A stretch of 32,026 bases of DNA from NCBI GenBank assembly GCA_012839035.1, contig DUOB01000070.1, forward strand, positions 1 through 32,026, in the 5' to 3' direction. Made by a program: the position numbers and the translations under genes. The stretch is from Propionibacterium sp. (GTDB taxonomy: Bacteria; Actinomycetota; Actinomycetes; Propionibacteriales; Propionibacteriaceae). This document shows, piece after piece, positions 15,976 through 21,958 of the stretch. Numbering within the stretch: the first letter of the stretch is position 1; every line of letters starts with the position of its first letter. The notes below the pieces were generated by a model, which made no database searches, was not told the origin of the DNA, and saw only the letters and a program-made list of their open reading frames with translations.

Positions 15976-16048
15976 ACTCCGGCCGGAATGCAAATCGGCG
16001 ACCGCCGGTCGTTCCGTTCTGCGGGCCACGGCGGCAACAATGGGGCGC

Positions 16049-16813
16049 ATGGTCACTCCATCCGACGCCAGCCCGACACCGTCCGTCCCGGAAGCCCTGC
16101 CGGATGCCGACTGGGCGCGCATCCTCTGTGTCGTCGCACACCCCGATGATCTGGAATACGGCACCTCGGCCGCCGTCGCCCAGTGGACGCGCCAGGGCAA
16201 GAAGGTGGCGTACCTCCTCCTCACCTCCGGCGAGGCCGGCATGCAGCTGCCGCCCGAGGAGGCCGGGCCGCTGCGCGCGGAGGAACAGCAACGCGCGTGC
16301 GCAGAGGTCGGTGTCGAGGACCTCCGGATCCTCAACCACCCCGACGGCATGCTCGTCCCCGGCCTCGACCTCCGGCGCGACGTCGCCCGGATGGTCCGCG
16401 AGTTCCGCCCCGATGCGGTGGTGACGGCCAACTTCGACGTCGAGGCGTACGGCGGGTTGAACCAGGCCGACCACCGCGTCGCGGGCCTGGCCGCGATCGA
16501 CGGCGTACGCGATGCCGACAACACCTGGATCTTCCGCGAACTTGTCGAGGAGGGCCTGCCCAAGTGGCACGCGAGGGCGCTGCTGGTCGCGGGACATCCC
16601 GAGCCCACCCACGGGGTCGTCGTCGACGCCGAGGCGGTCGCCGCGGGGGTCCGGTCGCTGGAGCGGCACGCTGCGTACCTCGCCGATCTCCCCAACCACC
16701 CCACGCCGGACGAGTTCGTCCCGCAGCTGTTGCGGGAGGGCGGGAAGGCGATGGGAGAGGAGTACGCCGCACTTTTCCGCGTCTTCGACCTCGGGGGGCT
16801 CGCGGGTTCCTGA
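16049..16813 (+). CDS. PIG-L/LmbE family deacetylase
   Basis: The 254-aa product belongs to the zinc-dependent PIG-L family that removes acyl groups from amino sugars or related thiol conjugates; MshB and Mca are the actinobacterial examples. The metal site is set by VVAHPDDLEYG (AHPDD motif, near residue 30), and the distal histidine is in NQADHRVAGLAAIDG. Other segments are VAYLLLTSGEAG, LRAEEQQRACAEVGV and LNHPDGML. It lacks clear mycothiol-enzyme signatures, so the substrate is open. ATG 16049 is chosen over ATG 16040 because AACAAT ends seven bases before it and neither has a good ribosome site. The downstream gene starts 86 bases on. Confidence 0.87.
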   Translation: MVTPSDASPTPSVPEALPDADWARILCVVAHPDDLEYGTSAAVAQWTRQGKKVAYLLLTSGEAGMQLPPEEAGPLRAEEQQRACAEVGVEDLRILNHPDGMLVPGLDLRRDVARMVREFRPDAVVTANFDVEAYGGLNQADHRVAGLAAIDGVRDADNTWIFRELVEEGLPKWHARALLVAGHPEPTHGVVVDAEAVAAGVRSLERHAAYLADLPNHPTPDEFVPQLLREGGKAMGEEYAALFRVFDLGGLAGS

Positions 16814-16898: not shown

Positions 16899-19448
16899 GT
16901 GGACACCTACAACGCCGTCTCCACCGGCTTTCGCGGGCTGGACCGTGTCATCGACGGGCTCCGGCTCGGGGACAACGTGGTGTGGCAGGTCGACTCGGTC
17001 GAGGACTATCGCCGGGTCGTGGATCCCTATGTCACCCGGGCGCTGGCCGACGGTCGGCGGGTCATCTATGTCCGATTCGCCAACCATCCGCCGGTGGTGC
17101 TGGACACGAGCGGGATCACGGTCATCGAACTCGACCCGGCCGAGGGGTTCGAACACTTCGCGACCACCCTCCACCACCTTGTCGCCCGGGAGGGGCAGCG
17201 GGTCTTCTATGTCTTCGACTGCCTGTCCGAGCTGCTGGGCCACTGGCATTCGGACCTGATGGTGATGAACTTCTTCAGCGTCATCTGTCCGTGGCTGTTC
17301 GACCTCGACACCGTCGCCTATTTCGCGATCACCCGCAATCTCCACAGCTTTGCGACGATCGCCTCGATCCGGCACACCACCCAGGTCCTGTTCGATCTCT
17401 ATCTGATCGACGACAAGGCCTATGTCCATCCGCTGAAGGTGTGGGAGCGCTATTCCCCGACGATGTTCTTCCCGCATCGGATCGTCGGCGATGAAGCGGT
17501 CTCCATCACGTCCTCCGGGGCGTCCGCACGGCTCTTCGCCTCGCTCAACCGCGGCACGGAGCAGCCGGATCCCTGGCACGTGATGCTCGACCGTGCGCGT
17601 GATGCGCTGTTCGGGATGCCCGACGAACAGGACGCCGCCAAGGATCTGCTGATGGCGATGCTGATCGGCCGGGAGGGTCGGATGGTCGAGATGTGTCATC
17701 GCCATCTCAACCTGGCGGACCTGCTCTCGATCGCCGACCGCGAGATCGGCACCGGGGCGATCGGTGGCAAGTCGGTCGGCATGCTCGTCGCACGGTCGGT
17801 GCTGGAGAACCATCCCGTGGGGCGCTTCTCCGAGCGGTTCGAGCCCCATGACTCGTTCTTCCTGGGCGCGGACCTGTTCTATACCTATCTCGTCGCCAAC
17901 AACTGGTGGCGGTTGTGGTCGGAGCACAAGACGACCGAGGGCTATTTCAGCGCGGCCGCGGAACTGCGCGAGGTCATCCGGACCGGCAAGTTCCCCACCA
18001 CGGTCCGCGAGCAGTTCATGCGGATGCTCGAATATTTCGGTCAGTCCCCGATCATCGTCCGCTCGTCCTCGCTGCTGGAGGACAACTATGGCAACGCCTT
18101 CGCCGGCAAATACGACTCGGTGTTCTGCGTCAACCACGGCACCCCGGAGGAACGGCTCCAGGCGTTCGAGGAAGCCGTGCTCACCGTCTATGCCTCGGCG
18201 GTGTCGGAGGACGCGCTGGCCTATCGGATGAACCGTGATCTCGTCGAACGCGATGAACAGATGGCGGTGTTGGTCCAGCGGGTGTCCGGGGAGTATCACA
18301 GCCACCTGTTCTTCCCGCACGCCGCGGGGGTGGCGAACTCGTCGAACCTCTATGTCTGGGACCCCGATACCGACTCCTCGGCAGGGATGGTCCGGCTGGT
18401 CTTCGGGCTGGGCACCCGGGCCGTGGACCGCATCCAGCAGGACTATGCGCGGATCGTCGCGCTCGACGTGCCCACCCGCAAGGCGCTCGTCGACCCGGCG
18501 GACGAGGCGCGCTGGTCGCAGCACTATGTCGACGTGCTCCACCTCACCGAGGGCGACCACCGCACGGTGCCGCTGACCGATCTGCTCGACGCGGACATCG
18601 GGGCGCCCTGGCCCCTGTTCGCGACTCCGGACTATCAGATGCTGCGCCTCCTCCGAGAACGCGGCAGGCGGCCGAAGCGGCAGCCGATGGTGCTCGACTT
18701 CGGCGGCCTGCTCGACGGCGACTTCCCCCGTTATCTGCGATCGGCACTGCGGGCGCTCGAGGAGGCGTACGACTATCCCGTCGACATCGAGTTCACCCTG
18801 AACGTCGCGGACGACGGCAATTGGCGGATCAACCTGGTCCAGTGCCGGCCACTGCAGACCCGGGGCCTCGGCAAGGCCGTGGCTGTGCCGGAGCTGACCG
18901 CCGACGATGACGACTTCCTGTTCGCCACCCATGGCAACTTCATGGGCGGCAATGTCCGGTTGCCGATCCGCTATGTGGTGACGGTCCGGCCGTCGGCCTA
19001 TCTCCGCATGGGCCAGCAGGACCGCTACGCCGTGGCCCGCGAGATCGGGCTGCTCAACCGGCTGCTCAAGGACGAGGACTTCATGCTGATGGGGCCGGGG
19101 CGCTGGGGGACCACCACCCCTTCGTTGGGGGTGCCCGTCCGCTTCACCGAGGTGTGCAATGCCTCCGTGCTGTGCGAGTTCACCTATGTGCGCGGCAACT
19201 TCCTGCCCGAGCTGTCCTATGGCAGCCACTTCTTCCAGGACCTGGTCGAAACGGGCATCTTCTATGTCGCGCTCTTCGAGGGGCAGGCCGGGACGCGGCT
19301 GAACGAACGGCTGATCCTCAAGCAGCCCAACCTGTTGGCCGAGCTCGACCCGGGCGGTGCGGATCTTGCCAACACGATCCATGTCGCACAATTCGACGGG
19401 TTGGAGCTCTATTCGGACATCGTGAGCCAGCGCCTGGTCTGTCGCTGA
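16899..19448 (+). CDS. Two-part protein: KaiC-like fold without P-loop plus PEP-synthase-type ATP-grasp domain
   Basis: The 849-aa protein has three visible parts. Residues of about 1-215 resemble a KaiC/RecA domain (STGFRGLDRVIDGLRLGDNVVWQVD, VIYVRFA, VFYVFDCLSEL), but the Walker A position reads VDSVEDYRR, with no GxGKT. Residues of about 270-655 match the PEP/pyruvate-binding ATP-grasp domain of PEP synthase and PPDK: GGKSVGM (289-295), IIVRSSSLLEDNYGNAFAGKYDSVF (385-409) and INLVQCRPLQT at its end. Residues of about 680-849 are a family-specific tail with MGPGRWGTTT and YGSHFFQDLVETGIFYVALF. The phospho-histidine and PEP domains of true PEP synthase are absent. The reaction is unknown. 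Start GTG 16899 has AGGA upstream. The AmmeMemoRadiSam genes follow after 98 bases. Confidence 0.8.
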   Translation: MDTYNAVSTGFRGLDRVIDGLRLGDNVVWQVDSVEDYRRVVDPYVTRALADGRRVIYVRFANHPPVVLDTSGITVIELDPAEGFEHFATTLHHLVAREGQRVFYVFDCLSELLGHWHSDLMVMNFFSVICPWLFDLDTVAYFAITRNLHSFATIASIRHTTQVLFDLYLIDDKAYVHPLKVWERYSPTMFFPHRIVGDEAVSITSSGASARLFASLNRGTEQPDPWHVMLDRARDALFGMPDEQDAAKDLLMAMLIGREGRMVEMCHRHLNLADLLSIADREIGTGAIGGKSVGMLVARSVLENHPVGRFSERFEPHDSFFLGADLFYTYLVANNWWRLWSEHKTTEGYFSAAAELREVIRTGKFPTTVREQFMRMLEYFGQSPIIVRSSSLLEDNYGNAFAGKYDSVFCVNHGTPEERLQAFEEAVLTVYASAVSEDALAYRMNRDLVERDEQMAVLVQRVSGEYHSHLFFPHAAGVANSSNLYVWDPDTDSSAGMVRLVFGLGTRAVDRIQQDYARIVALDVPTRKALVDPADEARWSQHYVDVLHLTEGDHRTVPLTDLLDADIGAPWPLFATPDYQMLRLLRERGRRPKRQPMVLDFGGLLDGDFPRYLRSALRALEEAYDYPVDIEFTLNVADDGNWRINLVQCRPLQTRGLGKAVAVPELTADDDDFLFATHGNFMGGNVRLPIRYVVTVRPSAYLRMGQQDRYAVAREIGLLNRLLKDEDFMLMGPGRWGTTTPSLGVPVRFTEVCNASVLCEFTYVRGNFLPELSYGSHFFQDLVETGIFYVALFEGQAGTRLNERLILKQPNLLAELDPGGADLANTIHVAQFDGLELYSDIVSQRLVCR

Positions 19449-19546
19449 CCGCTGATCAACCAGCGGACGGATTCTCCGGTTGGGGCACGCTTCTTTTCCG
19501 CGCGACGTACGTTGGATGCAGAGCCAGGCACACAGGAGTGAGAGGC

Positions 19547-20344
19547 ATGCGGAGAGTTCGTCGTCCCGCGGTCGCGGGGTTGTTCTATCCCGGCGGTGAG
19601 TCCGATCTCGCCGGCACTGTCGATGGTCTGCTCGCCGAGGGGAGGGCGGCTGCGGGGCCCGACCCGAGCCCGCCCAAGGCGGTGATCGTGCCCCATGCGG
19701 GCTACATCTATTCCGGTGCGACCGCCGCGCAGGCGTACGCGCGGGTTGCGCCCGCAGCCGACCGCATCAAGCGGGTCGTCATGTTCGGGCCCAGCCACCG
19801 GGTCGCCCTGAACGGGCTCGCGGTGCCCTCCGTGGGCGCATTCCGTACGCCGCTCGGCGACGTCTCCGTCGCTAAGCTCGACCTGACGGATCTTCCCCAG
19901 GTCGTGGTCGCCGACTCGCCGCACGCCCAGGAACACTCACTGGAGGTGCAGCTGCCGTTCCTGCAGCGCATGCTGGGGGACGGTTTCGACATCGTCCCGT
20001 TCTCGGTGGGGGTGGCGGAGCCGGAGGAGGTCGCGGAGGTCGTCGACCGCTGCTGGGGCGGGCCGGAGACGCTGCTGGTGTTCAGCACGGACCTGTCGCA
20101 CTACTACCCCTATGAGACCGCACAACGGCTCGACGCCGAGACCGTGCAACAGATGGTGGCGCTCACCGGCCCGATCGATCCCGACCGGGCGTGTGGTGCG
20201 CGACCTGTCAACGGTCTGCTCGTCAGCGGGACGCGCCGCGGCCTGAGCACCGAACTCTATGGCTGGTGCAACTCCGGCGACACCGCCGGCGATCGCGAAA
20301 GGGTGGTCGGCTATGCGGCCATCGGTGCCCTCGAACAGGACTGA
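19547..20344 (+). CDS. amrB: AmmeMemoRadiSam system protein B (Memo homologue)
   Basis: The 265-aa product is the bacterial homologue of human Memo1, a metal-binding protein with the fold of class III extradiol dioxygenases. It opens RRPAVAGLFYPG, then IVPHAGYIYSGATAAQAYA and FGPSHRVALNGLAVP supply two likely metal-binding histidines. EHSLEVQLPFLQ, FSTDLSHYYPY and YGWCNSGDTAGD (a cysteine near the third Memo1 ligand) follow. Its reaction is not known. ATG 19547 has AGGAG upstream, and a -10-like TACGTT lies at 19508-19513. The AMMECR1 gene overlaps its 3' end and the radical SAM gene follows, which is the conserved three-gene set. Confidence 0.92.
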   Translation: MRRVRRPAVAGLFYPGGESDLAGTVDGLLAEGRAAAGPDPSPPKAVIVPHAGYIYSGATAAQAYARVAPAADRIKRVVMFGPSHRVALNGLAVPSVGAFRTPLGDVSVAKLDLTDLPQVVVADSPHAQEHSLEVQLPFLQRMLGDGFDIVPFSVGVAEPEEVAEVVDRCWGGPETLLVFSTDLSHYYPYETAQRLDAETVQQMVALTGPIDPDRACGARPVNGLLVSGTRRGLSTELYGWCNSGDTAGDRERVVGYAAIGALEQD

Positions 20345-20897
20345 CCCACCGTGGCCCGCGGACGCGGGCACGGTGTTGCTGCCGATCGCCCGCGCCGCCA
20401 TCGCGGAACAGCTGGGGCTGTTCGCGACCGAGCCCGAGCTGCCCGAGTGGGTGCACAGGAGCGGCGCCTCCTTCGTCACCCTGCACACCGCCGGCCGACT
20501 GCGGGGCTGCATCGGCACGATCTCTGCGTACCGATCGATCGTCGAAGACGTCCGCAACAACGCCCGCAACGCGGCCTTCCGGGACCCGCGTTTCCCGGCG
20601 GTGAGCGTGGAGGAGTACGCGGGGCTCGATCTCGAGGTCTCCCTCCTCTCCCCGCCACAACCGATGGAGGTCCACGACGAGGGCGATCTGGTCCGCCAAC
20701 TGCAACCCGGCGTGGACGGTGTGCTGATCGAGGCCGGTGACCGGCGCGGCACCTTCCTCCCGCAGGTGTGGGAGCACTTCTCCGACGCCGGCAGCTTCGT
20801 TGCCGCGCTGCGCCAGAAGGCAGGCGTCAAGGACGAGCGCTGGGACCCGGACTGGCGCGTCTCCCGCTATACGGTCACCGCCTGGAGTGAACCATGA
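20313..20897 (+). CDS. amrA: AmmeMemoRadiSam system protein A (AMMECR1 domain)
   Basis: The 194-aa product is an AMMECR1-domain protein. The defining motif LRGCIGTISAYRSIVEDV lies near residue 66. ARNAAFRDPRFPAVSVEEYAGLDLEVSLLSPP and a C-terminal GTFLPQVWEHFSDAGSFVAALRQKAG also fit. Its biochemical role is unknown. The start is not certain. ATG 20313 overlaps the Memo gene by 32 bases and leaves room for the helix that precedes the domain, while GTG 20373 gives a 174-aa core. The stop overlaps the radical SAM start as ATGA, so all three genes are tightly coupled and probably made in matched amounts. Confidence 0.9.
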   Translation: MRPSVPSNRTDPPWPADAGTVLLPIARAAIAEQLGLFATEPELPEWVHRSGASFVTLHTAGRLRGCIGTISAYRSIVEDVRNNARNAAFRDPRFPAVSVEEYAGLDLEVSLLSPPQPMEVHDEGDLVRQLQPGVDGVLIEAGDRRGTFLPQVWEHFSDAGSFVAALRQKAGVKDERWDPDWRVSRYTVTAWSEP

Positions 20898-21958
20898 CCC
20901 ATCCGGCCCGCTATTGGCACGCCATCGACGACGGACGGATCCAGTGCGATCTGTGCCCGCGCGAATGCCGCCTGCGCGACGGCCAGCGGGGATTCTGCTT
21001 CGTCCGTCAGCGCGTCGGCGACCAGCTGGTGCTGACCACCTATGGCCGCTCGTCCGGATTCTGCCTCGACCCGATCGAGAAGAAGCCGCTCAACCACTTC
21101 TTCCCGGGCACGAGCGTCCTCTCGTTCGGCACCGCCGGCTGCAACCTGGGGTGCAAGTTCTGTCAGAACCACGAGATCTCGACCGCCGCGCAGATGGAGG
21201 CCCTCGCCGACAGTGCTTCTCCGGAGGATCTGGCCTCCGCGGCCCGGGCGTGGCGGTCCCACAGCATCGCCTTCACCTACAACGACCCGGTGATCTTCGC
21301 CGAGTACGCGATCGATGTCGCCCGCGCCTGCCGACAGGCCGGCATCAAGACCGTCGCCGTCACCGCCGGCTATCTCCAGGGCGAGGCCCGCCGCGACTTC
21401 TTCGCCCACATGGACGCCGCCAACATCGACCTCAAGGGCTTCCGGGACGACTTCTATCGCAAGCTCACCGGCGCGCGGCTCGCGACCGTGCTCGACACGT
21501 TGACCTATCTGCGGACCGAGACCGATGTGTGGTTCGAGATCACCACTCTGCTCATCCCCGGCCACAACGACGACCCCGATGAACTTCGGGAGCAGTGCGA
21601 CTGGATCGTTCGGGAACTCGGACCCGACACGCCGATCCACTTCTCCGCGTTCCACCCCGATCACCGGATGCAGGACGTCCCGCACACGCCGCCCGCGACG
21701 CTCACCCGCGCCCGGGAGATCGCCCTCGAAGCGGGTTTGCGGTACGCGTACACCGGCAACGTCCACGACCGCGCCGGGGACACCACCTCGTGTGCCGGCT
21801 GCGGGTCGGAACTCATCGTCCGCGACTGGTACAACATCCTCACCTATCGCCTCACCCCTGACGGCACCTGCCCCGACTGCGGCACCGTCCTGCCCGGACG
21901 GTTCGGCACCAGGGCCGGGACCTTCGGCGCGCGGCGGATCCCGATCCGGGTGAGTTGA
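20894..21958 (+). CDS. amrS: AmmeMemoRadiSam system radical SAM enzyme
   Basis: The 354-aa enzyme is a radical SAM protein related to pyruvate-formate-lyase activases. The 4Fe-4S/SAM motif is CNLGCKFC (Cys83, Cys87, Cys90), followed by QNHEIST. An N-terminal cysteine group CDLCPRECRLRDGQRGFC (residues 18-35) and a C-terminal zinc-ribbon-like CAGCG...CPDCG (about 297-332) flank the core. FTYNDPVIFAEYA, NIDLKGF and PIHFSAFHPDHRM are typical of the family. By analogy it would generate a 5'-deoxyadenosyl radical to modify a protein or small molecule, with the Memo and AMMECR1 proteins as partners. It is the last gene of the run and is followed by the repeat block. Confidence 0.93.
   Translation: MTHPARYWHAIDDGRIQCDLCPRECRLRDGQRGFCFVRQRVGDQLVLTTYGRSSGFCLDPIEKKPLNHFFPGTSVLSFGTAGCNLGCKFCQNHEISTAAQMEALADSASPEDLASAARAWRSHSIAFTYNDPVIFAEYAIDVARACRQAGIKTVAVTAGYLQGEARRDFFAHMDAANIDLKGFRDDFYRKLTGARLATVLDTLTYLRTETDVWFEITTLLIPGHNDDPDELREQCDWIVRELGPDTPIHFSAFHPDHRMQDVPHTPPATLTRAREIALEAGLRYAYTGNVHDRAGDTTSCAGCGSELIVRDWYNILTYRLTPDGTCPDCGTVLPGRFGTRAGTFGARRIPIRVS

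Follow-up and report, generated by a model that had tools for sequence, protein, structure and literature searches.

A conserved bacterial protein family that joins a P-loop-less KaiC-like domain to a PEP-synthase-type ATP-grasp core, and its link to glutamate dehydrogenase

The gene and its immediate neighbours

The window, by which we mean the whole stretch of 32,026 nucleotides that was analysed, holds on its forward strand a frame that is open over its length and encodes a protein of 849 residues (Table 1). The gene is real, and its GTG start is supported both by AAGGCAGGA, which stands immediately 5' of it, and by the ATG of a relative of 86% identity (L002), which lies at a nearly matching point of the alignment. 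A second long open reading frame, of 847 residues, runs antisense to it and is likely a by-product of the 69% GC content, the conservation being found on the forward strand. An earlier note on this DNA, made from the letters alone, had listed the motifs VDSVEDYRR, GGKSVGM, VRSSS/AFAGKYDS, GPGRWG and GSHFFQDLVE, and every one of them is present in the translation.

A gene for a PIG-L deacetylase ends some 85 bp upstream, and an upstream gene of the same cluster also precedes the homologues at two further loci (L077 and L078). Directly downstream lies the AmmeMemoRadiSam triad, which is kept beside the gene in near relatives only. A functional partnership with these genes (Memo, AMMECR1 and radical SAM) could be proposed from their following on the same strand, from relatives of the triad near the homologue in L078 and from Memo alone in L086; the triad is, however, absent beside nearly all other relatives, and this failure of the adjacency to be conserved weakens the proposal to the point where we regard it as very improbable.

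Table 1. Features of the gene and its surroundings in the window
Feature	Residues	Position	Strand	Basis
PIG-L deacetylase gene		16040..16813	+	
Antisense open reading frame, 847 aa		16848..19391	-	
Whole gene, 849 aa, GTG start	1-849	16899..19448	+	Translation; full-length relatives
KaiC-like (RecA-fold) domain without P-loop	1-218	16899..17552	+	VIA Z 21 to KaiC; 31-sequence N-domain alignment; no Walker A
Site of missing Walker A, GDNVVWQVDSVEDYRR	24-39	16968..17015	+	Translation, model, N-domain alignment
Cys130 codon	130	17286..17288	+	N-domain alignment
Helical linker	219-281	17553..17741	+	Predicted secondary structure
PPDK_N ATP-grasp domain	282-664	17742..18890	+	Pfam PF01326 E 3e-44; 5hv6 Z 21.6; invariant residues
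C-terminal domain, swivelling beta/beta/alpha-like	665-849	18891..19445	+	Model pLDDT 94.7; VIA matches; no Pfam match
GPGRWG motif	732-737	19092..19109	+	G734, R735, G737 in 61/61 sequences
His777 of GSHFFQDL, candidate phosphocarrier	777	19227..19229	+	His 57/61, Arg 4/61
AmmeMemoRadiSam triad		19154..21958	+	TIGR04336, TIGR04337

A KaiC-like domain without a P-loop

In the full-length AlphaFold model (pLDDT 84, pTM 0.81) the N-terminal domain aligns with KaiC in VIA-align at Z 21.0 over 199 residues (rmsd 3.0 Å), and on this basis the KaiC-like assignment holds. The earlier note had read this region as a KaiC-like fold that has lost its P-loop; the comparison of the predicted structure with KaiC does give a RecA/KaiC fold at the N-terminus, and the Walker A pattern ([AG]xxxxGK[ST]) is absent from the window protein's N-domain and from all 31 N-domains compared. 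DSVEDYRR follows the strand that would be expected to lead into the P-loop. While the fold is thus common to KaiC and other RecA-like ATPases, the domain differs from them in having no Walker A, in being single and in carrying signature residues of its own, namely GDN24-26, D107, W116, F126, C130-P131, Q162 and R184, which are identical in 31/31 N-domains, stand-alone proteins included.

The ATP-grasp domain

PPDK_N (PF01326), which matches residues 287-664 and scores 151.9 bits where the cut-off is 27 (E 3e-44), is the sole Pfam family matched in the protein. Five residues of this domain (K291, R388, E631, Q648, R650) do not vary among the 61 core sequences (the core being the ATP-grasp and C-terminal domains together), which span four architectures, and by motif (GGK, VRSS, DIEF and LxQxR) they correspond to K22, R92, E323, Q335 and R337 of PPDK. 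Such invariance makes it likely that the domain uses ATP, and agrees with the earlier reading of a PPDK-type ATP-grasp domain that is intact.

The family nevertheless stands apart from the enzymes with which it shares this domain. Against the full-length equivalog models of NCBIfam the best score is 60.6 bits for PEP synthase/PPDK, where the cut-off is 883, and 43.4 bits for rifampin phosphotransferase (NF041857), where it is 999. Like PEP synthase and PPDK, the window protein has a PPDK_N domain with its catalytic residues, and its C-terminal domain superposes, in one piece with the ATP-grasp domain, on their His-domain region; it differs from them in having neither the PEP/pyruvate barrel (PF02896) nor a match to PF00391, and in possessing the additional KaiC-like domain. 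Rifampin phosphotransferase (Rph), whose His domain is likewise C-terminal, is the closest solved structure (5hv3, Z 24.1), but identity is 18%, no rifampin-binding domain is recognised in the window protein, and its relatives are linked to glutamate dehydrogenase (GDH) and not to resistance genes. The family has the ATP-grasp domain in common with PEP synthase, PPDK and Rph, and lacks the other domains by which these enzymes are defined.

A different chemistry is suggested by the NCBIfam models for the prodigiosin ligases PigC and RedH, which are roughly on a par with the phosphotransferase models in matching the ATP-grasp domain, and would make of the protein a ligase that joins two molecules through an activated phosphate intermediate. 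These matches span only some 110-150 shared ATP-grasp residues and lie far under the curated cut-offs, and no biosynthetic cluster surrounds the gene; we consider such a ligase quite improbable.

A C-terminal domain that resembles swivelling folds

The earlier note held that the PEP and phosphohistidine domains of PEP synthase are both absent and that an unfamiliar domain replaces them. The first part stands, Pfam giving no match to PF02896 up to E 1. The second stands as far as sequence comparison goes: PF00391 is not matched, residues 665-849 match no Pfam family, and profile-profile comparison with PEP-utilizer His domains detected no homology. The replacing domain is, on the other hand, less foreign than it had seemed, since it resembles a swivelling fold and carries a near-invariant histidine. 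This likeness comes from VIA-align only; Foldseek with the model of the domain alone returned no significant match.

Folded alone from a 39-sequence alignment, the domain is modelled with the high confidence given in Table 1. In VIA-align it matches the AF1212 DRTGG domain (Z 6.6), CCT/thermosome chaperonins (5.7), the Rph His domain (5fbt residues 755-864, 5.4), the C-terminal part of Bacillus stearothermophilus pyruvate kinase (5.1) and the central domain of PPDK (1dik 385-504, 5.0), where each Z is low (about 5 being in the range of common arrangements) and other proteins are listed too. These matches belong to different superfamilies of one fold class, the swivelling beta/beta/alpha domains (SCOP c.8). 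The ATP-grasp and C-terminal domains also superpose jointly on PEP synthase (2ols) over 363 residues, reaching residue 459, and on Rph (5hv3) over 399 residues, reaching residue 865, compared with 285 residues for the ATP-grasp domain by itself. The order of elements in the model, a strand at 757-761, then GSH777 at the start of a helix (776-785), then a strand at 788-792, is that of the strand, TSH, helix and strand of PPDK, as in TSHAAVVARGMGKPCVAG of the window genome's own PPDK. Taken with the model, these comparisons indicate that the domain is probably not an unrelated substitute for the phosphohistidine domain.

Because the fold resembles the swivelling type and the histidine is near-invariant, a relay of the phosphoryl group through His777 is plausible. 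In two alignments (A3 and A4) His777 is invariant, these having excluded the four sequences with arginine; the latter are core-only relatives (L152, L156, L157 and L160), in which the motif reads GTRFFHDL.

Four architectures and an exchangeable N-terminal module

The enzyme belongs to a conserved, uncharacterised bacterial family in which a P-loop-less KaiC-like domain is joined to a predicted ATP-using domain, and whose members bear no annotation in public records beyond 'PEP/pyruvate-binding domain-containing protein'. The core occurs in 36 of 299 genomes of a Bacillota sample, and searches for the family on viral contigs and for the N-domain on plasmids found none. Four architectures form separate groups on a tree of the core: the first, that of the window protein, is KaiC-like plus core; the second is the core only, of about 575 residues; the third has a receiver-like domain before the core; and the fourth has a domain assigned by eye as GAF-like, the core and a C-terminal nucleotidyltransferase. 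An example of the third is WP_041525632.1 of Parabacteroides distasonis, which has the same core as the window protein and lies beside gdhA, but bears a receiver-like N-domain where the window protein has a KaiC-like one. The fourth is seen at L142:5898-9101 (-), L143 and L144.

The core-only clade (L145-L162) is from Bacillota and has no GDH nearby. At the loci checked, three neighbours recur, namely a VTT-domain protein, a riboflavin ECF transporter component and a cation efflux protein, and an S-layer-homology protein is seen as well.

Proteins that lack the core may also carry the KaiC-like domain, which forms the N-terminal half of XRE-type helix-turn-helix (HTH) and cupin regulators (L203-L212, for example L023:1480-2598), in which it again has no P-loop. 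Since the N-domains vary among relatives, being KaiC-like, receiver-like, GAF-like or missing, and since the KaiC-like form is also the input domain of these regulators, we read it as a module for input or docking that can be exchanged; of the scaffold proposed in the earlier note the KaiC-like fold is retained and the role revised.

Association with glutamate dehydrogenase

Ammonia enters metabolism mainly at two points, one of which is GDH. The GDH gene is a neighbour in 24 of 73 relatives from three phyla (Actinobacteria, Bacillota and Bacteroidota), where we would estimate a chance adjacency of about 0.1% from one or two GDH genes per roughly 3000 genes. In a first survey a GdhA cluster adjoined the gene at 9 of 26 loci. 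The distance is short, 22 of the 24 lying within about 200 bp or having an overlapping open frame, with Phocaeicola at 233 bp and L091 at 1.5 kb. GDH may be upstream, downstream, convergent or divergent, and the relatives adjacent to it span three of the four architecture clades; on the tree of the core this label must have changed at least 12 times. The adjacent enzymes themselves fall in two subfamilies, one sharing 50-75% identity with the reference GdhA and the other about 30%. In P. distasonis an NADP-GDH lies 195 bp from the gene with a second GDH 3.5 kb further on, and Phocaeicola massiliensis has the same pair; all three GAF-like members with a nucleotidyltransferase adjoin a GDH of the second subfamily.

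The stand-alone KaiC-like regulators have GDH alongside at 5 of 10 loci, and for this reason the KaiC-like half and the enzyme core can be said to be linked to GDH separately. Co-occurrence points the same way: among 117 genomes of the window's own family, all 26 that have the gene also have GdhA, as against 50 of the 91 that do not (Fisher p 3e-6, the figures ignoring phylogeny). The window genome has one GdhA, sited on another contig, and 49 of the 73 relatives, among them all 18 core-only members, have no adjacent GDH. A comparison of GDHs from genomes with and without the gene gave no diagnostic residues, the largest difference in frequency being 0.42.

One way in which the protein could serve GDH is as a non-catalytic partner, which would take up nucleotides or metabolites in its ATP-grasp and KaiC-like parts and adjust GDH allosterically by binding to it. 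The separate linkage of both halves to GDH would suit this, as would the missing P-loop, since the family may already include a part that binds but does not catalyse. A pseudo-enzyme would not, however, need the five ATP-grasp residues that are invariant in 61 sequences of four architectures, and we hold an allosteric partner to be distinctly unlikely.

Where no GDH adjoins the gene, its place can be taken by gltB/gltD, as at L136, L137 and L139, or by serC/serA with pta, and an aldehyde dehydrogenase is also seen as a neighbour; the products of gltB/gltD and serC are likewise users or makers of glutamate. The acceptor, which the earlier note had left as unknown, is in this way narrowed by gene neighbourhood to glutamate and GDH metabolism. 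These same neighbours, together with the fact that known PPDK_N relatives act mostly on small molecules, would accord with a metabolic and not a regulatory enzyme. It would be an ATP-dependent dikinase or phosphotransferase whose substrate is a small molecule from the metabolism of glutamate, 2-oxoglutarate or serine, and GDH would be required in the same pathway. We think this rather unlikely: Pfam recognises no small-molecule substrate domain, and sensory N-domains that vary by clade, with a KaiC-like domain shared with transcription regulators, suit a regulated signalling protein better. Because the gene repeatedly adjoins GDH in three phyla, we propose instead that the family is probably part of an unrecognised bacterial control on the conversion of ammonia to glutamate, and the functional lead to GDH is an unusually strong and testable one.

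A possible switch on ammonia assimilation

The reading that we favour, while placing it somewhat short of an even chance, is of a family of signal-controlled, PEP-synthase-like phosphotransferases in GDH metabolism, with an acceptor in trans that is most likely GDH. The N-terminal domain would sense a nitrogen or energy signal, or dock a partner, and so control the output. The ATP-grasp domain would bind ATP and donate a phosphoryl group, which would probably pass to His777 of the swivelling C-terminal domain and from there to the acceptor. An acceptor in trans is proposed because the protein has no counterpart of the substrate domain, the third one in PEP synthase, PPDK or Rph, and GDH itself would be the most likely candidate. 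The first and last of these steps rest on gene neighbourhood and domain exchange, and the middle ones on fold and conserved residues.

More specifically, several phyla may possess a dedicated, ATP-dependent covalent switch of GDH, in which the PEP-synthase-like core modifies the enzyme via its swivelling His domain under the control of interchangeable sensors, a possibility about which we are more doubtful than confident. These sensors would include the P-loop-less KaiC-like domain, which would have the same role in the transcription factors whose genes lie next to GDH. A useful analogy is the control of glutamine synthetase by GlnE and GlnD, as the proposed logic is alike, a dedicated enzyme switching an enzyme of nitrogen assimilation, and the window protein would be to GDH what GlnE is to glutamine synthetase. 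One architecture of the family also carries a nucleotidyltransferase domain. The catalytic fold differs, however, and the target here would be GDH, whose role we infer, and not glutamine synthetase.

The literature open to our search, which excluded subscription journals, describes neither the family nor its linkage to GDH. Work of decades ago reportedly showed that the GDH of Bacteroides fragilis can be inactivated reversibly and that E. coli GDH is phosphorylated, and we know of no modifying enzyme for the Bacteroides inactivation. Lying beside gdhA in Bacteroidota, the family is a direct candidate for the modifier of Bacteroides GDH. If this is true, it would give a function to a family annotated solely by its ATP-binding domain, and also to a KaiC-like domain that has no P-loop yet has a strict signature of its own.

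Within the KaiC-like domain, the Cys-Pro pair at 130-131 is identical in enzymes and regulators alike, and may have a redox or metal role.
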